Positions 32,601 to 45,759 of a stretch of 64,000 nucleotides of DNA are shown piece by piece; within the stretch, counting starts at the first letter, position 1, and each line of letters begins with the position of its first letter. The DNA lies in assembly GCA_009993635.1 (NCBI GenBank), contig JAACTC010000009.1, forward strand, positions 1-64,000. Direction: 5' to 3'. Below the pieces are notes generated by a model that made no database searches, had not been told where the DNA came from, and worked only from the letters and a program-made list of their open reading frames with translations. The position numbers and the translations under genes were made by a program. This DNA comes from Erythrobacter sp. (GTDB lineage Bacteria > Pseudomonadota > Alphaproteobacteria > Sphingomonadales > Sphingomonadaceae).

Positions 32601-34392
32601 GCGCGCGTTCCACCAGCCCCGCCGGATCGACGCCGGGGGCCAGCTCGCAGCGGAAATCGTGGATCGTGCCGAGCGTACCGTCGGCCAGCGGCGTGGGCAG
32701 TTCGCTGATCGTCTTCAGCCCGAAATTCTCCAGCGCGGGCACCGCTTCGGACAGCGGCAGGTGGTCCTTGTGCTGATAGATCTTGAGGCGCAGCGTGCCT
32801 TCGGCTTCCCCCGGTCCGCTGCGCAGGCGCACGGCGCGCTGCACGTGGCCGCCGCCTTCTGCATCGTCGCCAGCCTGCGCCGCCGCGCGGCTGGCCAGTT
32901 CGTCCAGCCGCAGGATGTCGATCGCGGCTTCTTCCGCGCCGTCGCTCGCGCGGTAGAACGAGGGGATGTGGTCGGCATAGCGCCGCGTCAGGCTGGCGGC
33001 GGCATCGTGATCGGTGCGGGCGCGCAGCTCGGTTTCCACCGCTTCGGACCAGCCGCGCAGCATTTCCTGCAGGCGCGCTTCCAGATCGGCTTCGCTGAAG
33101 CGGCTGCGGCTGTCGCGGAAATCGAGCACGAAGCGCAGCAGGGCGAGCGCCCCGCCTTCGATCTCGAGGCTCCAGTCGAGCAGGGTCGAGCCGCTGCTTT
33201 CTTCCAGCAGGGACTGGATCTGGCGGCGCACATCGGTCGACATGGTATCGCGCGGCAGCCACACGAAGGCGAACAGGTGGCGCGCCAGCGGCGCCTCGAC
33301 CAGCGCAAGGCGCGGGCGGGGCCGGTCAGTCAGGCTCATGGTGGTGGTCGCGACCCGGCGTACGTCCTCGTCGCGGAAGCCGATCAGCAGATCGTGCGGC
33401 AGCGCGGTGAGCGCGTGGACCAGCGCCTTGCCCGCATGGCCATCGGGATCGAAAGCGAGCTGGTCCATCAGCTCGCTTAGCTGGCGGCGCAGGCGGGGGA
33501 CGGCGTAGGGATCGGTCGCCAGTGCGGCGCTGGTCCAGATCCCGGCATGGATCGAGATCGCGACGATCTCTCCACCCTCGCGCACGGGCACCAGAAACAG
33601 GTCCAGCGGAACGCGGCGGTGGACGTTCGAGACGCGGTTTGCCTTGACGATCAGCGGCATCCGCGCGGTCGCGTTGGCCGGATCGTCGAACCATTCGAAC
33701 GCGCGCCTGTAGGACTGTTCGGCCAGGATATCGCGCGTGCTGGAGCGGCAGATGCCCAGCGCGTTTTCCTCGTGCCCGTCGCGGTAGTGCACCAGATGGC
33801 CCAGCTGGGTCAGCATCCCGCCGCTGAGCCATTCGAGCAGGCTGGTGCCTTCCCTGTCGTCGAGCGCCTGCCCGTCGTGCTGCATCGCCTTGCGCAGCGC
33901 CGCCCAATCGGTGACCGCGGCGCGTACGTCGAACAGCGTGTCGCGCAGATCGCGTTCGAGTTCGCTGCGCGCGGCTGCATCGGCGTGCTCGGTTTCCAGA
34001 TAGATCATCGACTCGCGCGGCGCATCGCTATCCTTGCCCGGCAGGTCTTGCAGCACGCCCTCGTCATCGCGCTGCGCGCGCATCACGGGGTGAACCAGCC
34101 GGAAGATCGAAAGGCCGAAATCGGCAACCTGCGCCGATACCGAGTCGACCAGGAACGGCATGTCGTCGTTGATCAGCACGATCCGCAGCTTGCGCGGCGA
34201 TCCGCTGGCTTCGGCGATGGCGATTGCCGGTTCGCCCGCCGGGCGCCGGGCGGCGGTTTCGAGGACGAAGGCGGCCGCTTCTTCGAGGTCGCCATTGTCG
34301 AATGGCTGATCGACCGGCAGCAGGGACTCGCGCATCCGCGTGGTCAGCTGTTCCAGCAATGCGGCGTCCGACTGCCTGTGATCGCCTGCCAT
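29683..34392 (-). CDS. gdhB: NAD-specific glutamate dehydrogenase, large 180-kDa class
   Basis: A 1569-aa enzyme that converts glutamate to 2-oxoglutarate and ammonia with NAD. The N-terminal 700 residues are the ACT-like regulatory region of this class (NDDMPFLVDSVSAQVADFGL); the catalytic core (about 750-1250) has GGLRWSDRRDDFRTEVLGLM, the VPTGAKGGFYPKQLP lysine loop, GCGDMSGDVFGNGML and GGRLNTDFIDNSAGVDCSDNEVN. The class is typical of alphaproteobacteria and actinobacteria. ATG 34392 is preferred because AAGG stands 5 nt before it, while ATG 34410 lies 2 nt after a GC-rich hairpin and lacks a ribosome site. Confidence 0.96.
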   Translation of the reverse strand: MAGDHRQSDAALLEQLTTRMRESLLPVDQPFDNGDLEEAAAFVLETAARRPAGEPAIAIAEASGSPRKLRIVLINDDMPFLVDSVSAQVADFGLSIFRLVHPVMRAQRDDEGVLQDLPGKDSDAPRESMIYLETEHADAAARSELERDLRDTLFDVRAAVTDWAALRKAMQHDGQALDDREGTSLLEWLSGGMLTQLGHLVHYRDGHEENALGICRSSTRDILAEQSYRRAFEWFDDPANATARMPLIVKANRVSNVHRRVPLDLFLVPVREGGEIVAISIHAGIWTSAALATDPYAVPRLRRQLSELMDQLAFDPDGHAGKALVHALTALPHDLLIGFRDEDVRRVATTTMSLTDRPRPRLALVEAPLARHLFAFVWLPRDTMSTDVRRQIQSLLEESSGSTLLDWSLEIEGGALALLRFVLDFRDSRSRFSEADLEARLQEMLRGWSEAVETELRARTDHDAAASLTRRYADHIPSFYRASDGAEEAAIDILRLDELASRAAAQAGDDAEGGGHVQRAVRLRSGPGEAEGTLRLKIYQHKDHLPLSEAVPALENFGLKTISELPTPLADGTLGTIHDFRCELAPGVDPAGLVERAPAIEAAIAAVLNGQAEDDSFNRLVLNVGLAAREAEWMRSIYRYLRQTGMGFTIYTVVDALSAAPQVTAALIALFVARHDPAFEGDRNQAEEDAQAAIKDGLHHVAAINDDRLLRLYRSVIEAMLRTNAFALHPGIALSYKFDSSQVPGLPKPIPYREIFVYSRRVEGIHLRAGPVARGGLRWSDRRDDFRTEVLGLMKAQRVKNAVIVPTGAKGGFYPKQLPSPALDRAGWAAEGQASYEIFIRSLLSITDNIVGDDFVHPEGVRILDNPDPYFVVAADKGTARFSDVANAIAESQDFWLDDAFASGGSNGYDHKAMGITARGAWVSVQRHFREMGIDVQTEPTKVVGCGDMSGDVFGNGMLLSKAIRLVAAFDHRHIFIDPDPDPAKSWDERKRLFDLPTSSWDDYDKGLISKGGGVFPRTAKSISLSRQARQALGTDQEEFDPDSLISAILKAPADLLWFGGIGTYVKAERENNIQVGDPANDALRVNGEDLQVKVVGEGANLGLTQAGRIEFALNGGRLNTDFIDNSAGVDCSDNEVNIKIALAAARRADLLSEEQRNALLASMTEEVAAIVLEDNRLQALAISIAEQGGDAATASTIRLIETLEDAGMLDRRTEGIADNETFTRRAGEGVGLTRPELAVLLSSAKLTLQDAIEAGSLTRDPTLETTLFHYFPAPLREKYGEQIRQHRLRSEIIATDLANRIVNRMGMVHPFELAEEEGVSLHDVASAFVSADRLLDIQKIWDALDESEMPEKTRLVLFDHVATAMRIQMADTIRVCGMSSPSEIVADLRPALDSLKEATVDLLASETRQRSARMRAEFAKGGAPEHIAAQVAHLFDLDGGIGIARLASDLDIDPRALAKAFTDLGGTLGLDWAQGTAALMSPSDVWDRLLVAGLARDFQQMRLEFLRRIYERGSNEGSPCSKVEAWAAANEPAVKQFRSMVRRAQAQNPVAPATLAQIASQARNLLGR

Positions 34393-34412
34393 ACTCGCCT
34401 TGTCTCCCATGC

Positions 34413-34430
34413 GGGGGCTTCGTGGCCCCC
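34413..34430 (-). promoter_or_regulatory. GC hairpin at the glutamate dehydrogenase start
   Basis: In the mRNA sense GGGGGC-cacgaa-GCCCCC forms a perfect 6-bp stem that ends 2 nt before the first possible ATG (34410). It would cover the place of a ribosome site for that ATG and leave the site for ATG 34392 exposed. It might simply force the downstream start, or modulate translation. Confidence 0.5.
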
Positions 34431-34513
34431 TGCTGCAATTCGTATCGGCGCGCCGTTACGGCAACGCCCGTTCCTTCCGCGCCGTTAGAAGCTTCGCCGA
34501 AGCCCCGCAAGGA

Positions 34514-35296
34514 TCACGCGGGCGTAAGGTGCCGCTCTACCGAGGCGATCAGCCGCGCAATATCGCCTGCCGTGGACAGGCGATGGTCGCCGATTTTGCT
34601 CAACTGAATCAGTACGGTGTCCGAAGCGAGCCGTTCCGCCAGGCGGACGCTGACCTGCCACGGCACATCCCGGTCCGCCTGCCCGTGCAGCAGCGTGACC
34701 GGGCAGGCAATTGCGATCGGCGCGTCCAGCACGCGGAGCGCCTGCGCATCGGCCCAGAATGCGGCGTGCGTCGGCGTGGGTTCGGGGCCGTAGGGGTTTT
34801 CCTCCAGCACGGTCTCGCCGCGCGCCAGCTGCGCCTTCTGCGCCTCGTCGTAACCCCAGTCGGAAAAATCGGGCGCGGCGGCGATGCCGATCATGCCGAC
34901 CAGCCGGGCCGAATCTTTCGCGGCCAGTTCCAGCGCAACCAGCAGCATCAGCCAGCCGCCCATCGACGATCCGATCAGCACCACCGGCCCGGCCACCTTT
35001 GCCTCGATCAGCGCGAGCACCTCGTCGCGCCAGCGCGACAGCGTGCCGTCGGCGAAGTCTCCGCTGCTCTCGCCGCAGCCCGAATAGTCGAGCAGCAGGC
35101 AGGCGTGCCCGTTCGCCTGTGCCCAGTCGAACAGCGCGCTCGCCTTCGATCCCGCCATGTCCGACATGTAGCCGGGCAGGAAGACGATGGTCGGTGCTGC
35201 GGTGGTCCCTGCGCCGCCGTCGGTGTGCCGAAAGGCGATCCGGCGGCCGTCGGGCATGGCAAAATGCTGCGCGGGTGTATCTGGGGCGTGGTCCAT
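34514..35296 (-). CDS. alpha/beta hydrolase (ABHD10/palmitoyl-thioesterase-like)
   Basis: The 260-aa protein has no signal peptide. It shows the alpha/beta hydrolase order: oxyanion loop VFLPGYMSDMAGSKA, YSGCGESSGDF, nucleophile elbow GSSMGG, an acid in HGQADRDVPW and the catalytic His in GDHRLST near the C-terminus. The GYxSDMxGxKA and DYSGxGxSxG motifs match the group of mammalian ABHD10 and many alphaproteobacterial carboxylesterases. The substrate is unknown. It lies upstream of nothing on its strand except gdhB after a 121-nt gap, so it is probably a separate unit. Confidence 0.9.
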   Translation of the reverse strand: MDHAPDTPAQHFAMPDGRRIAFRHTDGGAGTTAAPTIVFLPGYMSDMAGSKASALFDWAQANGHACLLLDYSGCGESSGDFADGTLSRWRDEVLALIEAKVAGPVVLIGSSMGGWLMLLVALELAAKDSARLVGMIGIAAAPDFSDWGYDEAQKAQLARGETVLEENPYGPEPTPTHAAFWADAQALRVLDAPIAIACPVTLLHGQADRDVPWQVSVRLAERLASDTVLIQLSKIGDHRLSTAGDIARLIASVERHLTPA

Positions 35297-35458
35297 GAAG
35301 CGGGCCTAGGAGAGTGCCCGCTGGCTGTCCACGACCGGCAGATTTTCCTACTTCGCAAAGCCCAGCTAGGTTTTGCGGATGGCTTCGATATCTCCTCGCC
35401 CGCCCTTGTCGCCGCTGCCCTTGCGCGCCTTTTCCGGTGGGAAGCCTTTTGACGCCAG

Positions 35459-35481
35459 GACACTGTGTCAGGTGTGTCAGG
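35459..35481. promoter_or_regulatory. palindrome plus 9-bp tandem repeat upstream of the PhoD gene
   Basis: GACAC-t-GTGTC (35459-35469) overlaps two adjacent copies of TGTGTCAGG (35464-35472 and 35473-35481), 55 bp before the phosphatase ATG. A tandem TGTCA repeat recalls a Pho box, but Pho boxes repeat every 11 bp and this repeats every 9 bp, so that identity is not supported. It is a candidate operator. The rest of the 240-bp gap (35297-35536) shows nothing else recognisable. Confidence 0.35.
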
Positions 35482-35536
35482 CTGCAAGCCGCCAGAGCGT
35501 CTTCGATCTTTCACGCATGCGGTTTAGGGGAGCTGC

Positions 35537-37228
35537 ATGAGCAACCTTCTCGCCCCTCCGCCCGCCCCGGAAACCCGTGCCGACCAGCGGTCGACAGGCC
35601 CCTTCTCGCTCAACCGCCGTTCGCTGCTGGCGGGCGGGTTGCTGGGCGCCGGCCTTGCCGCGATGCCGCTGTCCGCGCAGATCGCCGCCAAGGGCTTCAC
35701 CCACGGCATTGCCAGCGGCGAACCCCATGCAAACGGCGTGCTGCTGTGGACGCGCTTCGTCGGGTCGGGCGACGCGCGGCTTGCCTGGCAAGTGAGCGAC
35801 AGCGAAGACTTCGGGCGCGTCATCGCCGAGGGCGAGACGCTCGCCACGCCGGATCGCGACTGGTGCGCCAAGGCCGAGGTCACCGGGCTGGAGCCGGATC
35901 GCTGGTACTACTACCGCTTCACCGGCCCCGACGGCTCGCACTCCGCCACCGGGCGGACCCGCACCCTGCCGCAGGGGCCGACCGGCCGGTTCCGGCTCGG
36001 CGTGTTCTCCTGCTCCAACCTCGGCTTCGGCTGGTTCAACGCCTATGCCCATGCAGCGCAGGCGGGCGATCTGGACCTGCTGGTGCACCTGGGCGACTAT
36101 TACTACGAATATGGCGTCGGCACCTATCCCGACGAACAGCAGCTGATCGCCGGGCGCATACTCTCCCCGCAAAGCGAGACGGTGGAGCTGGCGGATTACC
36201 GCCTGCGCCATGCGACCTATCGTGCGGACACCGACCTGCAGCGGCTGACGCAGCTGTATCCCATGATCCTTGTGGCGGACGATCACGAGAGCGCGAACGA
36301 CAGCTGGCAGGGCGGCGCGCAGAACCACCAGCCTGGCAGCGAGGGATCGTGGGATGCGCGCAAGGCGGCGTCGCTGCGCGCCTATCGCGAATGGCTGCCG
36401 GTGTCGGACGATCCGTGGAAGGCGTATCAGGTGGGCGATCTGGCCACGCTGTTCCGGCTGGAAACGCGGCTTACCGCCCGGTCCGAGCAGCTCGACATCG
36501 CGCGCGTGCTGGCGGGCAAATCCACTCCGGACGAAATGGTGGCCGCGCTGACCGCATTTCGCGACGGGGCATGGGTCGATCCCGCGCGCCAGATGATGGG
36601 TGCGGCGCAGGAGGCATGGCTGGCCGACGGGCTGAAGGCCTCGACGCGGGGCGGTACGCGCTGGCAGGTGCTGGTGCAGCAGGTGCTGATGGGAAATCTC
36701 AACACGCCGACCGCGCTTGCCGGTGCTCTGCCCGCAGACACGCCCGCTGCGCTGCGCCAGCGACTGATGGCGGGTGCGATGGCCTCCGAACTCGGCATAC
36801 CGTTCAACATGGATGCCTGGGATGGCTATCCCGCCGCGCGCCGCCGGGTGTTCGAGGCCGCGCTCGCCGCCGATGCCAATCTGGTGGTGCTGGCGGGCGA
36901 TACGCATAACGGCTGGGCGTTCGATCTGGCGCAGGACGGGGCCAATGTCGGCGTCGAGTTCGGCGTGTCCTCGGTCACCTCGCCCGGGTTCGAAGGCTAT
37001 CTGCCGCAGGTGCCGACCGCGCTGCTGGAGCGCGCGCTGGTCGATGCCAATCCGCAGCTGCAATGGGCGGACACCTCGCGGCGCGGCTACATGGCGGTGG
37101 AGCTGACCCCGCAGGCGGCGACCTGCGAATGGCGCTTCATGTCGGGCGTGCGCCAGCGCGGGACGCAGCTGGGCGGGACGCACGCGATGACGAGCGCGCT
37201 CGGATCGAACGCGCTCGCCATGGGGTAG
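35537..37228 (+). CDS. phoD: PhoD-family alkaline phosphatase D, Tat-exported
   Basis: The 563-aa protein carries a Tat signal (SLNRRSLLAGGLLGAGLAAMPL, about 24-45), a small beta-sandwich (FTHGIASGEPHANGVLLWTRF, PhoD N-terminal domain) and the metallophosphatase core: GVFSCSNLGFGWFNAYAHA, HLGDYYYEYG, VADDHESANDSW and VVLAGDTHNGW, which supply the Fe/Ca ligands. PhoD enzymes release phosphate from di- and monoesters outside the cytoplasm. The ATG at 35537 follows GGGGAGCTGC. It ends 8 nt before the convergent hydrolase gene. The direct repeats upstream could control it. Confidence 0.93.
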   Translation: MSNLLAPPPAPETRADQRSTGPFSLNRRSLLAGGLLGAGLAAMPLSAQIAAKGFTHGIASGEPHANGVLLWTRFVGSGDARLAWQVSDSEDFGRVIAEGETLATPDRDWCAKAEVTGLEPDRWYYYRFTGPDGSHSATGRTRTLPQGPTGRFRLGVFSCSNLGFGWFNAYAHAAQAGDLDLLVHLGDYYYEYGVGTYPDEQQLIAGRILSPQSETVELADYRLRHATYRADTDLQRLTQLYPMILVADDHESANDSWQGGAQNHQPGSEGSWDARKAASLRAYREWLPVSDDPWKAYQVGDLATLFRLETRLTARSEQLDIARVLAGKSTPDEMVAALTAFRDGAWVDPARQMMGAAQEAWLADGLKASTRGGTRWQVLVQQVLMGNLNTPTALAGALPADTPAALRQRLMAGAMASELGIPFNMDAWDGYPAARRRVFEAALAADANLVVLAGDTHNGWAFDLAQDGANVGVEFGVSSVTSPGFEGYLPQVPTALLERALVDANPQLQWADTSRRGYMAVELTPQAATCEWRFMSGVRQRGTQLGGTHAMTSALGSNALAMG

Positions 37229-37236
37229 GGGCCGGG

Positions 37237-38154
37237 CTATTCGGCTGCGAATGCGGCCAACGCCGCGTTCATCGCGTCGGGCTGGTCGAGCATGATGAAG
37301 TGGCGAGAGCCTTCGACCGGCACGAAGGTGACGTCGGGCGCGGCGGCGTATTGCACCGGGTAGATGCCCTGCGCCATCTCGGCGGAGACCATCGGCGGAT
37401 CGACCGGGTAGAGCATGGTGACCGGCACCTTCAGCGTGCTCAGGCGCGGGCGCAGATCGGTGGTCATGATCTCGTACATCAGCTGAGCGCCCACCTTCAG
37501 GTCGGCCTGAGCGGAGTACTGGTCGACCTTGCATTGCGCTGCGGGCGTCTTGGCCATGCCTTGCGCCTGCATCGAGGGGTGCTCGCAATCGGGCGCGGGC
37601 ATGTCCATCCCGGCCTGCGCCACCATCATGGAGCGCATCTGGTTGGCCTGCGGTTCGGCAGCGTCCGCGCTGTCCATGCCCATCAGGACGGAGAAGAAGG
37701 GCAGCGAATCGACGATCATGATCTCGTCGACGATCTCGGGATGGTCGAGCGCGAGGTTGAGCGCGGTGAACCCACCCATCGAGTGTCCGACCACGTGGAC
37801 ATCGGTGAGGCCATTGTCCTCGATGTAACTGGCGAGTCCGTCGACCAGCAAAGGCAGCACCGGGCCTTGCGCGTTGGCACCCGCGTCGGTGCCGCCGAAG
37901 CCGTTCACCTGCACCAGATGGACGCGGTAGCCCGCGCCGGTCAGCGTCTCGATCTGCCCGTCCCACACGCTGCGCGGCGACAGCAGGCCGGGGATCAGGA
38001 TGGCATCGCGCGCACCCTCGCCGACCACTTCGACGCTGAAGCGCGCGGGCGCTTCGGCTTCGGCTGCAGAGGTCTGCGGCTGGGCCTGTGCCGGGGCATA
38101 GAGGGGTACGGTCAGCGCAGCGAATGCGACGGCGGTGGCGAGCAGCTTGGTCAT
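37237..38154 (-). CDS. exported alpha/beta hydrolase
   Basis: The 305-aa protein has a signal peptide (MTKLLATAVAFAALTVPLYA, cleavage near AQAQ). The hydrolase fold shows AILIPGLLSPRSVW, the nucleophile elbow GHSMGG, MLYPVDPP near the acid position and a C-terminal SRHFIMLDQPDAM with the catalytic His. A methionine-rich insert (about 150-190, with two Cys, PDCEHPS and AAQCKVD) may form a lid. GGAT lies in GAGAAGGAT 8-12 nt upstream of the ATG, inside the end of the XRE gene, so it is the fourth gene of the operon starting at 39134. Confidence 0.9.
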   Translation of the reverse strand: MTKLLATAVAFAALTVPLYAPAQAQPQTSAAEAEAPARFSVEVVGEGARDAILIPGLLSPRSVWDGQIETLTGAGYRVHLVQVNGFGGTDAGANAQGPVLPLLVDGLASYIEDNGLTDVHVVGHSMGGFTALNLALDHPEIVDEIMIVDSLPFFSVLMGMDSADAAEPQANQMRSMMVAQAGMDMPAPDCEHPSMQAQGMAKTPAAQCKVDQYSAQADLKVGAQLMYEIMTTDLRPRLSTLKVPVTMLYPVDPPMVSAEMAQGIYPVQYAAAPDVTFVPVEGSRHFIMLDQPDAMNAALAAFAAE

Positions 38155-38158
38155 GGGA

Positions 38159-38356
38159 TCAATCCTTCTCGTGGATGAAGATGTCTTCGATGGTCAGGCC
38201 AAACACGTCGGCTATCTGGAAGGCGAGGGGGAGCGAGGGGTCGTAGCGGCCGGTCTCGATCGCGTTGACGCTCTGGCGGCTGACGCCGAGTTCCTCGGCC
38301 AGCGCCTGCTGGCTCCAGTTGCGCTCGGCGCGCAGGACCTTGAGGCGGTTCTTCAT
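38159..38356 (-). CDS. small XRE-family transcriptional regulator
   Basis: The 65-aa protein is a single helix-turn-helix domain: MKNRLKVLRAERNWSQQALA, then ELGVSRQSVNAIETGRYDPS and LPLAFQIADVFGLTIEDIF. This compact type is usually found beside small membrane proteins and represses its own operon. Its ATG overlaps the stop of the 206-aa membrane protein gene (ATGA). Two matching palindromes ahead of the operon at 39146-39162 and 39199-39215 are the probable binding sites. It is far too short to hold a ligand domain, so a signal may reach it through the membrane proteins. Confidence 0.93.
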   Translation of the reverse strand: MKNRLKVLRAERNWSQQALAEELGVSRQSVNAIETGRYDPSLPLAFQIADVFGLTIEDIFIHEKD

Positions 38357-38973
38357 GCCTCGTCGCCTGACGGGTCGCTCGCCCGCCGGTCGGCCAGACC
38401 CATCCAGCACTGGCCCAGGCCCATGCCCATCGCCCAGACGGGGAAGACCCACCAGGCCCAGACGTGCGGCACGACCTCGAAGGTTTCGAGAAAGCCCCAG
38501 AACGTGCCCAGCGTCAGCACCGCGCCCAGCCCGAACAGGCTCGCCATGATCGCGCGATGACGCAGGAACTCGTCCTCCTCCTCGATCAGGTAGCGCGCCA
38601 TCGTCCAGATCATGCCCAGCACCGGGATCACCGGCAGCAGCGCGATCAGGAAGCTTTCGCCCTGGCTCAGCTCCACCCGGTTCGCGATGGTGACCGCGAT
38701 GCCAAGGCCCAGCACGTAACCGAAGGTGGCGAACAGGAAACGGCGCGTGTAGCGGGCGACCGCCGCGCTGAGATGCCCGGTAGAGCGTTGCTTGGCGAGG
38801 CTGGCGCGGGTCAGCGGAATGATCTGCAACATTGCGACGACCATCAAAATGAAGCCGGTCGTGCTGTCGATCGCATCGGAAATGCGCAGCGCGGAGATGA
38901 CGGCGAAGGCCGCGAACAGGCCGCCCGCCCAGAACCCCGGGCGCCGGTGCAGGGGAAGCCGAGCCGTGCTCAC
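38353..38973 (-). CDS. 206-aa membrane protein, XRE operon
   Basis: The protein has about six hydrophobic segments (for example FWAGGLFAAFAVISALRI, ILMVVAMLQIIPL, FLFATFGYVLGLGIAV, FLIALLPVIPVLGMIW) and a cytoplasmic IEEEDEFLRHRAIMASLFG loop. I do not recognise a named family beyond the membrane proteins that commonly accompany small XRE regulators. The GTG at 38973 is chosen because GAGGAAGG lies 5 nt before it and it overlaps the stop of the upstream 54-aa ORF (GTGA). An ATG far upstream in frame (39174) would run over the operator and is rejected. Confidence 0.85.
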   Translation of the reverse strand: MSTARLPLHRRPGFWAGGLFAAFAVISALRISDAIDSTTGFILMVVAMLQIIPLTRASLAKQRSTGHLSAAVARYTRRFLFATFGYVLGLGIAVTIANRVELSQGESFLIALLPVIPVLGMIWTMARYLIEEEDEFLRHRAIMASLFGLGAVLTLGTFWGFLETFEVVPHVWAWWVFPVWAMGMGLGQCWMGLADRRASDPSGDEA

Positions 38974-39134
38974 GATGCCTTCCTCATGCGGCAACGCATA
39001 CCCGTAGCCGCGGCGACGAAGGGCAGCGTGAGGATCGCGGCGATGGTCGTCCAGTCGGGTAGGACATCGGCGATATTGAGCAGCGCGACGAGGATGATGG
39101 CAGCGCCCCAGAGGAAGGGTGAGATCTTTGTCAT
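38970..39134 (-). CDS. 54-aa two-span membrane protein, first gene of XRE operon
   Basis: The ORF starts at ATG 39134 with AGGA 10 nt upstream and encodes two hydrophobic spans (FLWGAAIILVALLNIADVL and TIAAILTLPFVAAATGM) ending in a basic tail RCRMRKAS. Its TGA overlaps the GTG start of the 206-aa membrane protein, and the ribosome site of that gene lies within its last codons, which supports real translation and coupling. I do not recognise the family. It is the first product of the operon controlled by the palindromes at 39146-39215. Confidence 0.7.
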   Translation of the reverse strand: MTKISPFLWGAAIILVALLNIADVLPDWTTIAAILTLPFVAAATGMRCRMRKAS

Positions 39135-39145
39135 GGTCAAGTGTC

Positions 39146-39162
39146 CTTTCTTCTATGGAAAG
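39146..39162. promoter_or_regulatory. operator copy 1 of the XRE operon
   Basis: CTTTCTTCTATGGAAAG is an imperfect palindrome 12 bp upstream of the ATG of the 54-aa gene. It matches the reverse complement of copy 2 at 14 of 17 positions. Its place between promoter and start codon is typical for repressor binding. Confidence 0.65.
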
Positions 39163-39198
39163 GGTACTTGTCACGATTCGACGGCCCAGTCAAGGGTG

Positions 39199-39215
39199 CT
39201 TTCCATTATAGAAAG
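39199..39215 (-). promoter_or_regulatory. operator copy 2 with embedded -10 box (TATAAT)
   Basis: On the minus strand CTTTCTATAATGGAAAG is a 17-bp palindrome with CTTTC/GAAAG arms whose centre holds a perfect TATAAT (39205-39210). No strong -35 stands 17 bp upstream (ATCTTT), so the promoter may be of the weak or activated kind. Centre-to-centre distance to copy 1 is 53 bp, almost exactly five helical turns, which places both sites on one face of the DNA. The 65-aa XRE protein is the natural candidate to bind here and shut off its own operon. Confidence 0.7.
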
Positions 39216-39272
39216 CGCCCTTTGCACAAAGATGGGGTGGACCCCAGCACGAAGCGGCCTATATTTGCGCCC

Positions 39273-39344
39273 ATGGCTCACAGCATCGCCACGTCTACGA
39301 CCACTACGACCTCGGGAAACCGGGGGCGGATGGTCGTGGCCTGA
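39273..39344 (+). CDS. threonine-rich leader peptide (23 aa), putative attenuator of exonuclease-thrS
   Basis: ATG 39273 opens a 23-codon ORF reading MAHSIATSTTTTTSGNRGRM and three more residues, stop TGA 39342-39344. Six of residues 7-13 are threonine and five in a row (39297-39311) use ACG, ACC, ACT, ACG, ACC, so all but ACA occur. The pattern and the SGNRGR tail recall the enterobacterial thrL leader. No Shine-Dalgarno is visible; TATATT at 39260-39265 with a weak GTGGAC 17 bp upstream would start RNA at about 39272, that is a leaderless message. The next genes are an exonuclease and threonyl-tRNA synthetase, which fits Thr-tRNA sensing. Confidence 0.65.
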   Translation: MAHSIATSTTTTTSGNRGRMVVA

Positions 39345-39397
39345 CACGCGATCGCCGCCACCCGGGTTCGGGTGGCGCTGCGCCGGCTTCCCGAACC
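39301..39397 (+). promoter_or_regulatory. alternating hairpins after the Thr leader (attenuator-like)
   Basis: Four pairings compete. 1:2 joins the Thr codons (39301-39311) to 39332-39339 with a 3-nt bulge. 2:3 joins 39332-39340 to 39354-39362 (8 of 9 positions, one wobble). 3:4 is a perfect 9-bp stem CGCCACCCG-ggtt-CGGGTGGCG (39356-39377). A further 8-bp pairing joins GGTTCGGG (39365-39372) to CCCGAACC (39390-39397) and excludes 3:4. A ribosome stalled on Thr codons would cover segment 1, allow 2:3 and block 3:4, as in classical attenuation. No U-run follows 3:4, so it may terminate weakly or hide the exonuclease ribosome site instead. Confidence 0.6.
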
Positions 39398-39431
39398 TGC
39401 ACCAGTCTGGCGGCGCAACGGGAATGCGAAG

Positions 39432-39938
39432 ATGCGCTATTACATCGATACCGAATTTAACGGCACCGGCGGCCAGCTGCTGAGCATTGCGCTGGTACGG
39501 CAGGATGGTGCTTCATTCTACGAAGTGCTGCACGCGCACGAACTGATCGTGCCGTGGGTGCGCGAACACGTGGTGCCGCATTACGGCCAGGAGCCGGTCG
39601 AGCGGTTGCAGGCGGTCAAGAAAATGCAGAAATTCCTGCGCAAGGATTCCGGGCCGCACGTGTTTATTGCGGACTGGCCCGAAGACCTTGTGCATTTCAA
39701 CACCATGCTGCTGCGCGATCACGGCAAGCGCAACGATCCGTTTCGCTTTGCCTGCCTGTTGCTGAACCTGCCCGAATTCGACACCGCCCGGGCGAGCGAA
39801 TTGCCGCATAATGCGCTCGCCGATGCCCGCGCGCTCGCCAGCTATGTGGAAGGCAATCTGTCCGCCACTAAGCCGGTGATGGACCCCGCCGACCTTTCGC
39901 TGGTGCAAAAGGCTTGCGCCGACAGCGATCTTGCCTAG
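39432..39938 (+). CDS. DEDDh-type 3'-5' exoribonuclease (Rv2179c-like)
   Basis: The 168-aa protein has the RNase T-fold signature residues: MRYYIDTEFNGTGGQLLSIA with Asp and Glu of motif I, an aspartate in FIADWPEDLVHFN (motif II) and HNALADARALASY (His and Asp of motif III). MRYYIDTEF is the hallmark of the Rv2179c-like family, which trims 3' overhangs of RNA. The ATG at 39432 has GGGA 9 nt upstream. It is preceded by the Thr leader and hairpins and followed 54 nt later by thrS, so it may share the threonine control and act on tRNA or rRNA; that role is inference. Confidence 0.9.
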   Translation: MRYYIDTEFNGTGGQLLSIALVRQDGASFYEVLHAHELIVPWVREHVVPHYGQEPVERLQAVKKMQKFLRKDSGPHVFIADWPEDLVHFNTMLLRDHGKRNDPFRFACLLLNLPEFDTARASELPHNALADARALASYVEGNLSATKPVMDPADLSLVQKACADSDLA

Positions 39939-39992
39939 GCACCGCGGCCAAAGGCATACCCCTTCCATACCAAATTCCGATGGACTGAACCG

Positions 39993-42002
39993 ATGACGGA
40001 ACTGCTCAAGATCAGCCTGCCCGATGGCTCCGTGCGCGAAATGCCGCAGGGGAGCACCCCGGCGGACGTCGCCGCCCAGATCGGCCCCGGCCTCGCCAAG
40101 GCGGCGCTCGCCGCGCGGGTCGACGGCGAACTGCGCGACATCACGCGGCCCTTCGAAGGCGATGCCGAGCTTGCGCTGGTGACCAGCAAGGATGTGGACG
40201 AGGCGCTGGAACTGGCGCGGCACGACTATGCCCACGTGCTCGCCGAAGCGGTGCAGAACCTGTTCCCCGGCACGCAGATCACCTTCGGCCCGGCGACGGA
40301 CGACGGCTTCTACTACGATTTCGCCCCCCCGGCGGATCGAGGGGCCTTCACCGAGGAAGACCTGCCGGCGATCGAGCAGGAGATGCGCCGGATCATCGCG
40401 GCGGATACCCCGCTGGAGCGCGAGGTCTGGACGCGCCAGCAGCTGATCCAGTGGTTCAAGGACCATGGCGAGAGCTTCAAGGCCGAATGGGCCGCCGAGC
40501 TTCCCGAGGGCGAGGAACTGACGATCTACCGCCAGGGCGACTGGCTGGACATGTGCCGCGGGCCGCACCTTGCCAGCACGGGCAAGCTCGATCCGCAGGC
40601 CTTCAAGCTGACGCGCGTCAGCGGCGCTTACTGGCGCGGCGACCAGAAGAACGCGATGCTCAGCCGGATCTACGGCACCGGCTGGCTCAACAAGAAGCAG
40701 CTCAACGAGCACCTCCACCGTATGGAAGAAGCCGCCAAGCGCGACCATCGCAAGCTCGGCCGCGAAATGGACCTGTTCCACCTGCAGGAAGAGGCGCACG
40801 GCAGCGTGTTCTGGCACCCGCAGGGCTACAAGATCTGGCGCGGCCTTGAATCCTACATGCGCCGCAAGATGGACGGCGCAGGCTATCGCGAGATCAAGAC
40901 GCCGCAGGTAATGGACGCGCGCCAGTGGGAACGCTCCGGCCACTGGGGCAAGTATCGCGAGAACATGTTCGTCATCCCCGACGAGGTGCCCAATACCGAA
41001 GACGAGGGCGAGCTGGTGTCCAAGGACGCCGACTGGATGGCCCTGAAGCCGATGAACTGCCCCGCGCACGTGCTCGTCTTCAAGCAGGGCATCACGTCCT
41101 ATCGCGAACTGCCGATCCGGCTGGGCGAGATGGGCTGCTGCCACCGTAACGAGCCGCACGGCGCGCTGCACGGGCTGATGCGCGTGCGCCAGTTCACACA
41201 GGACGATGCGCATATCTTCTGCACCGAGGCGCAGGTGGTCGAAGAGGTCCGCGCCTTCTGCAAGCTGGCGGATAGCGTCTACAAGGATTTCGGCTTCACA
41301 TACGCGATCAAGCTGGCGCTGCGGCCCGAGCAGCGGCTGGGCTCCGACGCCGACTGGGACCGCGCCGAACAGGAACTGCGCGACGCGGTGCGCGACGCGG
41401 GCATGATGAACGACGAATACGGCTGGGAAGAACTGCCGGGCGAGGGCGCGTTTTACGCTCCCAAGCTCGAATGGCACCTGACCGACGCGATCGGGCGGAC
41501 GTGGCAGGTCGGCACGATCCAGGGCGACCGTGTGCTGCCCGAAAGGCTCGACGCGAGCTATATTGGCGAGGATGGCGAGAAGCACCGCCCGGTGATGCTC
41601 CACCGCGCGATCTTCGGTTCCTACGAACGCTTCATCGGCATTCTGATCGAGCATTTCGCTGGCAAGCTACCGCTGTGGCTCGCCCCCACGCAGGCGGTGG
41701 TCGCCACCATCGTTTCGGATGCGGACGATTATGCCAACGATGCGCTGGCCAAGCTGCGCGCGGCGGGCATTCGCGCCGAAGCGGATCTTCGCAACGAGAA
41801 GATCAACTACAAGGTGCGCGAGCACAGCCTTGCCAAGGTTCCGCACCTACTGGTGGTCGGCAAGCGCGAGGCCGAGGAGGGCACGGTCGCGGTGCGCACG
41901 CTCGGCGAGAAGGAACAGCGGGTGATGAGCCTCGACGAAGCGATCGCGATGCTGCGCGAAGGCGCCACGCCGCCCGATCTGCTGGCCGATCTGCGCGACT
42001 GA
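39993..42002 (+). CDS. thrS: threonyl-tRNA synthetase
   Basis: The 669-aa class II synthetase has a TGS domain (residues 1-65, [16 protein letters not shown]), an editing domain with the HxxxH motif ([17 protein letters not shown]), a catalytic core with [13 protein letters not shown] (zinc Cys), [23 protein letters not shown] (motif 2 region), [19 protein letters not shown] (motif 3) and a C-terminal anticodon domain ([20 protein letters not shown]). The ATG at 39993 is preceded by GGAC. It lies downstream of the Thr leader and exonuclease gene in one direction. ThrS of E. coli is controlled at the operator by tRNA mimicry; here a leader peptide device seems to be used. Confidence 0.98.
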
Positions 42003-42006
42003 CAGG

Positions 42007-42753
42007 TTGGAGCTTCTGGCAGGATTCAGCGCGCTGCAACTGGCGGTTGCGCTTCTTACCGGGCTGGTCGCGGCGTTCATCCGCGGGCTGGCGGGTTTCG
42101 GCCTGGCGATCCTGCTGGTGCCGGTCCTCGCCCTGACGCTGAGCCCGGTTGAGGCGGTGCTGACCACCAACGTGGTCGCGCTGCTGATCGGCGCGCTGGA
42201 GCTGCCGCGCCTGCTGCGCGAGGCGGAGCGCAGCGTGTGGGCGATCATCGGACTGGTGCTGCTGACCACGCTGCCGGGGCTCGCGCTGCTGGCGGCCACG
42301 CCGCCGAATATTGCCCGCCTGCTGATCGCGCTGGTCGCGCTGTCGGCCTTTGCCGCGATCCTGTTTCCAGTGCGCGAACCCGAACGCCCGGGGCCGATTA
42401 CGACCGCGCTGACCGGCGCAGCGACCGGGATCCTGACCGGATTTGCCGGAATGCCGGGCCCGCCGGTGGTGCCCTACTATGTGGGCCGGGCAATTCCCCG
42501 GCAGGTCGCCAAAAGCTCGATGATCCTGATCTTCACCTTTGCCGCGCTGATCGGCATCGGATCGGGCGTCGCGCTGGGGCGGATGGAATGGCGGCTGGCG
42601 CTGCTGGGCGCGATGCTGCTGCCGGTCGTGCTGCTGGGCACCTGGCTTGGCCGCAGGGCCGACGGATATGTGTCGGACCGCGCGTGGCGCATTTTCGTGG
42701 GCGTGGTGCTGGCAGCGGCGGCGCTGGCCGCGCTCGCCAAGCTGGTCGTCTAG
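42007..42753 (+). CDS. TauE/SafE family membrane permease
   Basis: The 248-aa protein has about seven or eight hydrophobic spans and the TauE/SafE pattern: FIRGLAGFGLAILLVPVLALTL near the start with the conserved GxGG-like turn, and a second repeat TGILTGFAGMPGPPVVPYYVG followed by AALIGIGSGVALG. Members move sulfite, sulfoacetate or other organic anions; the substrate here is unknown. It begins with TTG 4 nt after the thrS stop, so it is probably cotranscribed with thrS. The context gives no sulfur genes. Confidence 0.88.
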   Translation: MELLAGFSALQLAVALLTGLVAAFIRGLAGFGLAILLVPVLALTLSPVEAVLTTNVVALLIGALELPRLLREAERSVWAIIGLVLLTTLPGLALLAATPPNIARLLIALVALSAFAAILFPVREPERPGPITTALTGAATGILTGFAGMPGPPVVPYYVGRAIPRQVAKSSMILIFTFAALIGIGSGVALGRMEWRLALLGAMLLPVVLLGTWLGRRADGYVSDRAWRIFVGVVLAAAALAALAKLVV

Positions 42754-42869
42754 CCGAAAGGCACGAAGCGCCCGGCGAGGATCAACGCGCTGGCGCAGGC
42801 GGATACGATCACGGTGCGCGCGGCGGCGAATGCTTCGATGCGGCGGATCAGGGCGATGGGTCGGGCCAT
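42750..42869 (-). CDS. possible 39-aa single-span membrane protein
   Basis: ATG 42869 to TAG 42750 encodes MARPIALIRRIEAFAAARTV and a hydrophobic segment VIVSACASALILAGRFVPF. It lies in the 150-bp space between the convergent tauE and agmatine deiminase genes, 34 nt downstream of the latter on the same strand, and its stop overlaps the tauE stop. No ribosome site is seen, so it may not be a gene. Positive-inside charge and one span fit a small membrane protein. Confidence 0.3.
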   Translation of the reverse strand: MARPIALIRRIEAFAAARTVIVSACASALILAGRFVPFG

Positions 42870-42903
42870 GGGCCCAGTGTCGCGGGTGCGGGTAAAGAAA
42901 ACC

Positions 42904-43896
42904 CTAACGCGCGGCGGGCATCTGCATGCTGGCGCAGTGGAACCCGCCGCCGCCAGCCAGAACGCCGAGCATGGGCAGGCCGACCGCGCTGCGGGCAGGG
43001 AACAGCGCGTCGATCGCGGCGACCGCCGCCGCGTCCTGCGGCACGCCGAAGGTCGGCACTGCGACGATCGAATTGCCGATGAAGAAATTGGCGTAGCTGG
43101 CAGGCTCCACCCAGTCCCCGCGCGATATCAATCCGGGCGAAGGAATCGGCGCGACCGTCAAGCCCGCAGCTTCGAGCCGCGCCCGGGCGTCGGCATAGAC
43201 CTGCGCGTTGGGATCGTCACTGCCGGTCGGCTCCGCCAGCGCGACCATACCGGGTGCAACGAACCGTGCGAGGTTGTCGACATGGCCGTCCGTATGATCG
43301 TTCAGCAGCCCGTCGCCCAGCCAGACGACTTTCGAAAGGCCGAGATCGCGCGCCAGCCGCGCCTCGATCTCTTCGCGCGACAGTGCGGGGTTGCGGTTGG
43401 GGTTGAGCAGGCATTGCTCGGTGGTCAGGACCGTGCCCTGCCCATCGGTATCGATCGCGCCGCCTTCCAGCACCCAGTCGGGTCGATCGAGTGGCAGGCC
43501 TTCGCCGGTAGCCAGCTCGGCCCCGATGGTCTGGTCGCCCGCCATCAGGTACTTGCCGCCCCAGCCGTTGAAGCCGGGGCGCACGGCGGCACGCGTTTCA
43601 TCGCGCTCGACCACTATGGGGCCGGTATCGCGCAGCCAGACATCGCCATATGTCCGCCGTTCGAGCGTGACCGCGCCAGAGACAAGAGCCTTCGCCCGTG
43701 CCTCGTTCGCCGCATCGCGGACCAGCAGGCGAACGCCCTGTCCGCTCTCGGCCACGGCATTGGCGAAACCGGCGATCTCTTCCTGCGCGCGCGCGAAGGC
43801 GTCGCCCCATTCGTCCGGATCGTGCGGGAAGCCGATCCAGACCCATTCCTGCGGCTCCCATTCGGCGGGAAGCCGCATCGCGCCCATCCGGGTCAT
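42904..43896 (-). CDS. aguA: agmatine deiminase
   Basis: This 330-aa peptidyl-arginine-deiminase-fold enzyme converts agmatine to N-carbamoylputrescine and ammonia. Visible are MRLPAEWEPQEWVWIGFPHD, YGDVWLRDTGPI (substrate Asp), VLEGGAIDTDGQGT, GLLNDHTDGHVDNLARF (catalytic His/Asp) and the C-terminal nucleophile in GGGGFHCASMQMPAA. The start is ATG 43896 (MTRMGAMRLPAEW) with GGACAGG upstream; the frame is open further upstream without homology. The usual partner N-carbamoylputrescine amidase is not adjacent. It starts 20 nt after the M28 peptidase stop and may be cotranscribed with it. Confidence 0.93.
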   Translation of the reverse strand: MTRMGAMRLPAEWEPQEWVWIGFPHDPDEWGDAFARAQEEIAGFANAVAESGQGVRLLVRDAANEARAKALVSGAVTLERRTYGDVWLRDTGPIVVERDETRAAVRPGFNGWGGKYLMAGDQTIGAELATGEGLPLDRPDWVLEGGAIDTDGQGTVLTTEQCLLNPNRNPALSREEIEARLARDLGLSKVVWLGDGLLNDHTDGHVDNLARFVAPGMVALAEPTGSDDPNAQVYADARARLEAAGLTVAPIPSPGLISRGDWVEPASYANFFIGNSIVAVPTFGVPQDAAAVAAIDALFPARSAVGLPMLGVLAGGGGFHCASMQMPAAR

Positions 43897-43915
43897 GCGC
43901 CTGTCCTTTCGAGAC

Positions 43916-45616
43916 TCAGCAACCCTTGTTGGTCGCGGCGCAGCTCTCGTCGCGGATGCCGCGGAACTCATCGCCCTCGACCCAGTTGGGCCAGCTGGTC
44001 GACATCGCCATCATCCGGCCGAGGCGGTAGTAGAGCTGCAGGTCCGCCATCACGCCCGACCAGTCCCAGTTCTCGTCGAACTCGTCCTTCGGGCCGTGAT
44101 AGCGATTGTCGCGATAGTCGGCCGAAATGGCTTCGCCCGCCTCGCGCCCGCCTTCGATCAGATCCTCGCCGCCATCGATATAGAGCATGGGAACGCCCTG
44201 CTTGGCGAAGGCGAAATGGTCGGAGCGGTAGTAATACCCGGCCTCCGGCGCGGGGTTGGGCGTGGCGACACGGCCATCGGCCTTCAGCGCGGCGTCGAGG
44301 AACTGGTCGAGCTGCGATTTGCCGGGGCCGACCACCGTCACATCGCGCGCGGGGCCTGCGATCAGGAAGGCATCCATGTTGACCCCGCCCACCGTCTGGT
44401 CGAGCGGGAAGACCGGGTTTGCAGCGTAGTAATAGGAACCCAGCAACCCCTGTTCCTCGGCCGTCACCGCCAGGAACACGATGCTGCGATCAGCCGCGCC
44501 CGCCTTGGCCTGTGCCTGCGCGAGTGCGACCAGCGCGGCGGTGCCGGTGGCGTTGTCGACCGCGCCGTTGCAGATGTCGTCGCCATCCTCGGCAGGCGTG
44601 CAGCGGCCCAGATGGTCCCAGTGTGCGGTGTAGAACACGTATTCGTCCGGACGCTTGGTACCCGGCAGGATGCCGATCACGTTCTGCGACATGTACTCGC
44701 GGCTCGTATTGTCGAAGCTGGTGGACGCCTTCACGCCCAGCGGCACCGCTTCGAAATCCTGCTCCCTCGCCGCGTCCTTCAGCTTGGCGAGATCCTGGCC
44801 CGCGGCCTGGAAGATCTTTTGCGCGGCGGCATTCTGGATCCAGCCGTTCATCCTGGTGGGCAGGGGCGCATCCTCGCCGCGCTGCGGATAGGCCTGCGGG
44901 CCGGACCAGCTGCTTTCCACGACGTTCCAGCCGTAAGATGCAGGCTCCGTCTCGTGGATGATGATCGCCGCGGCGGCACCCTGGCGCGCGGCTTCTTCGT
45001 ACTTGTAGGTCCAGCGCCCGTAATAGGTCATCGCCTTGCCGTTGAACGGCCCTTCGAGATCCTCGGCACCGAAGTCGGGATCATTGACGAGGATGACGGC
45101 GGTCTTCCCCTTCATGTCGACGCCCTCGTAGTCGTTCCATCCCTTCTCGGGCGCGTTGATGCCGTAGCCGACGAATACCAGTTCGCTGTCCGCCAGCGTG
45201 GTCCGTTCGGTTTCGCGATAGCTGACGCCGACCCAGTCCTTGCCATATTCAAACGACATCGCCTTGCCGTCGCCGCCGGTGACCTTGAGCGGGGCGAAAT
45301 TGCTGCCGGTGATCTCCACCAGCGGCACATCCTGCGTCCACGAACCCTCATTGCCGGGTTGGAGGCCAGCCTCTTCGAACTGCGTCTTGAGGTACTCCAC
45401 GGTCATCGCGCCGCCTTCGGTGCCGGGCATGCGGCCATCGAACTCGTCGCTCGAAAGCTCGCGCGTGACGTCGATCATCGTCGCTTCGGAAATGTCGCCA
45501 TCGGCAACTTCCGGAATGTCGAGCGCACTATCGCTCTCGCCACCGCCGGACAGGACGGCGGCATCGCAACCGGCAAGGGCAAGGGCGAGAGCCGCCACGG
45601 CAGACAAGCGTTTCAT
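43916..45616 (-). CDS. M28-family zinc peptidase, lipoprotein
   Basis: The 566-aa protein has a lipoprotein signal (MKRLSAVAALALALAGCDAA), a PA (protease-associated) insert in the middle (about 130-270) and the M28 zinc-aminopeptidase core: YTAHWDHLGRC (His), NGAVDNATGTAALVALA (bridging Asp), LAVTAEEQGLLGSYYYA (catalytic Glu pair), GGVNMDAFL (Asp) and YRSDHFAFAKQGVPML (His). It probably removes N-terminal amino acids from peptides at the cell surface. GGAGAAA precedes the ATG at 45616. It is divergent from glnE across 143 bp. Confidence 0.93.
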   Translation of the reverse strand: MKRLSAVAALALALAGCDAAVLSGGGESDSALDIPEVADGDISEATMIDVTRELSSDEFDGRMPGTEGGAMTVEYLKTQFEEAGLQPGNEGSWTQDVPLVEITGSNFAPLKVTGGDGKAMSFEYGKDWVGVSYRETERTTLADSELVFVGYGINAPEKGWNDYEGVDMKGKTAVILVNDPDFGAEDLEGPFNGKAMTYYGRWTYKYEEAARQGAAAAIIIHETEPASYGWNVVESSWSGPQAYPQRGEDAPLPTRMNGWIQNAAAQKIFQAAGQDLAKLKDAAREQDFEAVPLGVKASTSFDNTSREYMSQNVIGILPGTKRPDEYVFYTAHWDHLGRCTPAEDGDDICNGAVDNATGTAALVALAQAQAKAGAADRSIVFLAVTAEEQGLLGSYYYAANPVFPLDQTVGGVNMDAFLIAGPARDVTVVGPGKSQLDQFLDAALKADGRVATPNPAPEAGYYYRSDHFAFAKQGVPMLYIDGGEDLIEGGREAGEAISADYRDNRYHGPKDEFDENWDWSGVMADLQLYYRLGRMMAMSTSWPNWVEGDEFRGIRDESCAATNKGC

Positions 45617-45759
45617 TTCAGGTTTCTCCGGGGAATTCGCTGTGCGACGCTTGTTGCAAACCCGAAGCTTAAGGGCAAGTGACCGGGCGGGCCGGTACGC
45701 CAACCGTCCTTCCGGGAAGCATGCTTGCCAGCGCGGCGGACAGCGGGCAGGGCGGCGCA

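Follow-up and report, generated by a model that had tools for sequence, protein, structure and literature searches.

A Thr-codon leader and mutually exclusive RNA helices upstream of thrS in Erythrobacter and relatives: a probable ribosome-mediated attenuator

The window, a stretch of 64,000 nucleotides from an Erythrobacter sp. contig, carries on its + strand a short open reading frame (ORF), an exonuclease gene and thrS. The leader ORF (39273–39344) begins with ATG at 39273, ends with TGA at 39342–39344 and comprises 23 codons (MAHSIATSTTTTTSGNRGRMVVA); orthologues of it were found. Its five consecutive Thr codons, ACG ACC ACT ACG ACC, occupy 39297–39311 as the preliminary description had stated, a sixth Thr codon lies at 39291, and the peptide tail reads SGNRGRMVVA. 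Among the 262 ATG-started ORFs of 15–30 codons on both strands of the window, this ORF alone contains at least 5 Thr within 8 residues. The gene at 39993–42002 was identified as thrS, threonine--tRNA ligase, by TIGR00418 (635.9 bits) and by the Pfam domains TGS, tRNA_SAD, tRNA-synt_2b and HGTP_anticodon. As described, an exonuclease gene and thrS lie downstream of the leader on the same strand. The exonuclease gene (39432–39938, + strand) encodes a DEDDh-like protein of 168 amino acids. Its earlier assignment as an Rv2179c-type exonuclease stands as a remote relationship to Rv2179c/RNase AS, based on similarity of residues 1–82 to PDB entry 4oke (E = 1.1e-4), but the score against the NCBIfam model RNase_AS (NF033638) was 25.9 bits, below the cut-off of 200, and no match was obtained in Pfam.

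The leader is preceded by a promoter, P1 (39238–39265, + strand), consisting of the −35 hexamer TGGACC (39238–39243), a 16-nt spacer and the −10 hexamer TATATT (39260–39265). A consensus scan of 12 kb (34001–46000) gave P1 as the sole promoter-like match. The TATATT noted earlier was thus present, though it ends 7 nt before the ATG and not 8. A TA-type −10 hexamer ended 6–8 nt before the leader ATG in 43 of 46 leaders and in 68 of 71 held-out ones, i.e., in 111/117 altogether, as compared with 5.7% of the other ATGs in the same regions. Leaderless translation, as first suggested for the window only, is hence probable across the leaders, since this spacing is conserved, and the 5′ end is predicted accordingly: transcription most likely begins at the leader ATG or within 1–2 nt of it.

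In a first sample of the family, the Thr-run leader was located at 46 thrS loci, and it was found at none of 16 thrS loci that belong to the order's other families. A model of the leader region was then used, which was built from sequence only and applied with a family search threshold of E ≤ 3e-7. It matched 143 of 398 family genomes with a single strong copy per genome, while matches in 289 genomes of the class outside the family were at chance level only. Seventy-six new matches that had not been used in building the model served as a held-out set, of which 71 possessed a Thr-run leader and 67 were located directly before thrS. A blind pattern scan across GTDB contigs gave the leader together with thrS in Erythrobacter, Qipengyuania, Aurantiacibacter, Altererythrobacter, Tsuneonella, Croceibacterium, Novosphingobium, Sphingopyxis, Parasphingopyxis and a few Sphingomonas. 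The majority of the matches in Sphingomonadales were leaders before thrS, and a short Thr ORF of the leader type was not found at the matches in unrelated phyla. The leader and its chain of competing hairpins stand before thrS in well over 100 species of erythrobacters and relatives. The leader is absent from one member of the genus and from many members of the family; at the thrS locus of that genus member (G004), neither leader nor exonuclease was observed, and only the thrS-proximal element described below is present. The preliminary description had staked the idea on the occurrence of Thr-rich ORFs in related genera. Such leaders were found there, with the Thr run conserved under synonymous drift and linked to thrS, and the idea survived this comparison.

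The partner of the leader required revision. The leader does lie ahead of an exonuclease-thrS unit here, but thrS is the partner that is conserved as its target; outside the genus, the leader is located about 200 nt before thrS with no gene between. Within the genus, the exonuclease was present in 8 of 10 genomes and the leader in 9 of 10. One of these genomes (G005) retains only the first codons of the exonuclease gene as a stub, and has leader, switch and the proximal promoter-like element intact before thrS; by its sequence, this stub is a natural deletion. Judged from these gene orders, the exonuclease is a later insertion between the switch and thrS, in the genus of the window and a few others. 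A link between exonuclease and leader was considered as the main subject and rejected, as no gene separates the leader from thrS in the majority of genera and the exonuclease has largely disappeared from one species. Four loci from other genera also carry the same exonuclease between leader and thrS, and their close relatives have the leader directly before thrS, so that the exonuclease was gained or lost at one site.

A second putative promoter, P2, was located by eye at 39931–39960 (+ strand; TTGCCT, 18 nt, CATACC), where it overlaps the stop codon of the exonuclease gene; it was not detected by the consensus scan of 34001–46000. All exonuclease-type genomes exhibited, also by eye, TTGCCTAG followed after approximately 17–18 nt by a CATA-type hexamer such as CATAGG. 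Elsewhere, CTTCCGG, a spacer of about 17 nt and GCCATGGC precede thrS at most loci of the family, in genomes with and without the leader. From its position and conservation, the P2-like element may contribute basal thrS expression, and probably does so.

Across 109 leaders with thrS downstream, the number of Thr codons per leader averaged 6.9 with a minimum of 4. Threonine was kept while the codon varied, as exemplified by the third-last position (ACC in 57, ACT in 38, ACG in 6 and ACA in 2 leaders). ACT accounted for 22% of the Thr codons in leaders versus 1.7% in six genes of the window, where it is rare; in the leader of the window it occupies 39303–39305. The last four control codons were nearly all ACC or ACT across leaders, and both are decoded by tRNA-Thr(GGU) according to established decoding rules.

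The RNA that includes and follows these codons comprises segments in the order Thr codons, A, B, stop codon, C, D, F, E and F′, all on the + strand. Strand A (CCTCGG, 39310–39315) pairs with B and exhibits compensatory changes. Strand B (CCGGGGGCGGATG, 39320–39332) encodes the RGR tail and pairs with either A or C, and strand C (CGCCGCCACCCGG, 39353–39365) pairs with either B or D. The C-D loop together with strand D (GGGTTCGGGTGGCG, 39364–39377) has C or E as its partner, the loop covarying with E. Strand E (CCCGAACC, 39390–39397) pairs with GGTTCGGG (39365–39372) of the C-D loop and D. Strand F (TGCGCC, 39379–39384) pairs with F′ (GGCGCA, 39412–39417), and this helix crosses D:E, with which it is mutually exclusive.

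Covariation was evaluated by comparing strand pairing within a species to that across species, using 37 species (approximately one per genus) and 2000 permutations. The self-versus-cross z-scores were −5.2 for A:B, −5.2 for B:C, −4.6 for C:D, −9.1 for D:E and −7.8 for F:F′ (0/2000 for each), whereas the control pairs B:E (+0.3), A:C (−0.2), D:F′ (+0.7) and E:F′ (+1.5) exhibited no covariation. On a map of all 105 segment pairs, the five helices alone stood out. For the 71 held-out leaders, the values were −3.0, −6.0, −6.8, −5.0 and −10.9 in the same order; two unrelated segment pairs reached −5.0 and −3.7 in this set, which indicates that relatedness inflates some of these z-scores. Compensatory cells were also counted on a plain MAFFT alignment with 500 shuffles, giving 44 versus 14.2 expected for the set A:B, C:D and F:F′, and 41 versus 13.9 expected for the exclusive set B:C and D:E (0/500 shuffles in both cases). 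Sliding of the partner strands destroyed the pairing. Bases of the C:D loop, which can be constrained by D:E alone, covaried with E through UA, AU, CG and GC pairs, and RNAalifold selected B:C unaided. On this covariation, A:B, B:C, C:D, D:E and F:F′ are five mutually exclusive helices that recur in held-out sequences. Folded as a single sequence, the window region had no unusual stability (z −1.6), so that the switch would be missed if this measure were relied on alone.

The nature of strand B also accounts for the tail of the leader peptide. Third codon positions are conserved in the RGR tail because the tail is the RNA strand B, and the peptide differs in leaders where the RNA motif stays, as in TGSPGERSVAI, TTGDCRRLPVA and PGGLGMRVTLT. 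The GNRGR-like tail, which had been read as a resemblance to E. coli thrL, can hence not be taken as a sign of kinship.

Only the RNA beyond a masked ribosome footprint was folded, and the distance between the first A-site base and the 3′ edge of the footprint was assumed to be 13 nt. A ribosome placed on the last four Thr codons gave B:C in 75–92%, D:E in 38–52% and F:F′ in 15–39% of species; D:E thus appeared in about half of the species only. When it was placed on the stop codon, the folds contained C:D in 90%, F:F′ in 80–87% and D:E in 2–6% of species. In the window itself, the B:C stem is exceptionally long and D:E was obtained at some stall positions only; for a ribosome that has reached the stop codon, C:D formed and the minimum-energy fold paired E with the exonuclease ribosome-binding site (RBS) instead of forming F:F′. 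In these model folds, the choice of helix depended on ribosome position; covariation and folding together demonstrate the alternating helices and this dependence.

A U-run does not follow the hairpins: at least 5 T within 10 nt occurred after F′ in 7/111 leaders and after D in 1/111, and no terminator-like site was found on the + strand at the switch. The loop of F:F′ is approximately 25–35 nt, and together with the lack of a U-tract this makes a classical intrinsic terminator unlikely. Extension of C:D by F as an intrinsic terminator was rejected, as C0:F exhibited no covariation and no U-run comes after it. Segment E and the loop following it contain 40% C and 15% G. The E segment may be a Rho site that would be accessible under Thr-replete conditions and partly covered when D:E forms.

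These features are likely those of a ribosome-mediated attenuator of thrS, here together with the exonuclease, by which the level of charged tRNA-Thr is sensed. We infer stalling, the direction of the response and the output step as follows. Transcription would start at the leader ATG (±1–2 nt), and the 23-codon leader would be translated as a leaderless mRNA. When Thr-tRNA is short, the ribosome would stall at the last Thr codons and cover strand A, leading to B:C pairing; D would then be free to form D:E, which would block F:F′ and allow read-through and more ThrRS. When Thr-tRNA is plentiful, the ribosome would reach the stop codon and cover strand B, so that C:D would form, E would be released, and F:F′ would form and reduce the expression from P1. 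The output would be a non-classical premature termination of transcription, either Rho-dependent through the exposed C-rich E or at a U-less GC-rich hairpin. The promoter-like element near thrS would probably supply the basal level; such a proximal promoter would bypass the switch, which is a point against the model.

That the Thr codons are a chance run without function was weighed, as simple ACN repeats readily yield runs of Thr. The run is nevertheless far beyond chance because many genera have it at the orthologous position, with its codons drifting synonymously; together with the fixed promoter spacing and the covarying helices, the comparative sequences already refute this reading, to which we assign almost no probability. 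It is also very improbable that the ORF encodes a small protein acting by itself or in trans, with the RNA helices being secondary: the coincidence of the tail with strand B, its third-position conservation and its change where the RNA motif is kept all speak against it, and the N-terminal half of the leader peptide is without conservation. The recurrent RGRxVA tail would agree with such a protein, as would the trp leader peptide of Sinorhizobium meliloti, which is active in trans (PMC7298713).

Two further readings were weighed. The sensor described above could act on translation, so that free E pairs with a downstream RBS in the Thr-replete state and D:E releases this RBS in starvation. When the ribosome was placed at the stop codon of the window's leader, UUCCCG paired with CGGGAA of the exonuclease RBS in the fold, and similar complementarity between E and RBS was found in several exonuclease-type genomes with duplexes of −8 to −13 kcal/mol. 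In the direct type, which makes up the great majority, no covariation between E and the thrS RBS was detected (z −1.1), about 60 nt separate F′ from thrS, and pairing of F′ with the RBS and other downstream pairings were null, so this output is rather unlikely, and control of thrS by E:RBS pairing was discarded for the direct type. An operator as in E. coli thrS, where ThrRS represses the translation of its own mRNA by binding to a hairpin that resembles tRNA-Thr close to the thrS start, is slightly less probable still than the small protein. A conserved (C)TTGTGCCATGGCGC does precede thrS in leader and non-leader genomes, and its UGU recalls the tRNA-Thr anticodon, but several genomes have UCU or UAU in place of UGU, there is hardly any covariation between the arms (z −2.0), and the Thr codons and the five helices would be left unexplained. 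The fixed distance of this element to the upstream CTT element suggests a promoter rather than an operator. Pairings of F′ with G5, G3 and the thrS RBS were tested for covariation and found unsupported.

A stretch of E at 39388–39395 (CTTCCCG) is complementary to the exonuclease RBS at 39419–39424 (CGGGAA), and this was observed in several exonuclease-type genomes. Translational control of the exonuclease by E is possible, and E:RBS pairing together with F:F′ could generate a pseudoknot.

The E. coli thr leader (thrL/Thr_leader), located before thrABC, is a Thr-rich short ORF with alternating hairpins that senses charged tRNA-Thr through ribosome position, and the attenuator proposed here resembles it in these three respects. 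It differs in being located before thrS, in its probably leaderless start, in lacking a U-run terminator, in its Thr-only run, in the additional D:E/F:F′ relay and in the lack of an Rfam match: no Rfam family, including Thr leader and T-box, matched 39200–39500 at E ≤ 10, and none reached the gathering score in 11 related loci. A synthetase operon under ribosome-mediated attenuation is also known in E. coli pheST, in which the pheM leader uses Phe codons, an intrinsic terminator and a canonical translation start. In the literature searched, which consisted mostly of papers outside subscription, no thrS leader peptide was found for this group, and an earlier prediction is possible; the earlier statement that no Thr leader was known for thrS in this group agrees with this, and a precedent exists elsewhere, in Streptomyces lividans (PMC8079986). 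S. lividans thrL is reported as a leaderless leader with two Thr before thrS and as an attenuator that lacks a uridine-rich terminator (PMC8079986); the present leader is similar in position and termination and probably in its start. The S. lividans leader is actinobacterial and unrelated in sequence (MKRVRPFLETTPGFVPAR), and comparative support for its alternating structures is not presented in the available part of that report, unlike here (PMC8079986). S. meliloti trpL (rnTrpL) is likewise an alphaproteobacterial leader ORF with mutually exclusive structures; it is leaderless, with a transcript that begins at the ATG (PMC7298713), as is predicted here. It differs in sensing Trp, controlling trpE(G) and possessing a transcription terminator. 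A leader ORF before trpS was detected by ribosome profiling in Caulobacter crescentus (PMC4117421), again an alphaproteobacterial leader before an aminoacyl-tRNA synthetase, though of another amino acid and gene and with no RNA switch described in the available part of the paper. Leader peptides of actinobacterial cys and leuA have no obvious terminators, and Rho-dependent termination was proposed for them; the cys leader has no conserved hairpins, in contrast to the covarying switch here (PMC1262725). For amino-acid and aminoacyl-tRNA operons, attenuation was surveyed comparatively by Lopatovskaya et al. (2010), as cited in PMC4833913.

The idea of attenuation is classical, and the distinctive features here are the probably leaderless ORF, the two-step helix relay and the lack of a classical terminator. 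Whether these leaders form a family of synthetase attenuators across the clade, which would combine a leaderless ORF, two coupled switches (A:B/B:C, and C:D/D:E crossing F:F′) and a conserved output without a U-run, Rho-dependent or non-classical in another way, under ribosome position, is evenly balanced in our judgment. For erythrobacters, Novosphingobium and relatives, the attenuator model offers a specific and testable control of thrS, and it provides a clear example, defined by comparison, of ribosome-mediated attenuation that lacks a U-run. Terminator-less leaders were noted in GC-rich Actinobacteria without explanation there; as the helices are defined here by covariation, the way in which transcription is ended by such attenuators can be put to a direct test. 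One more, probably leaderless, leader ORF is also added for Alphaproteobacteria, where few are known.

Between P1 and a minus-strand gene cluster, two palindromes were observed, CTTTCTTCTATGGAAAG (39146–39162) and CTTTCCATTATAGAAAG (39199–39215). The cluster near them encodes an XRE-type HTH regulator (38159–38452, HTH_3), of which the palindromes are likely operators, possibly also touching P1. Both are conserved in the genus, and similar TGTCAAG-rich spacers were observed at thrS of other genera.
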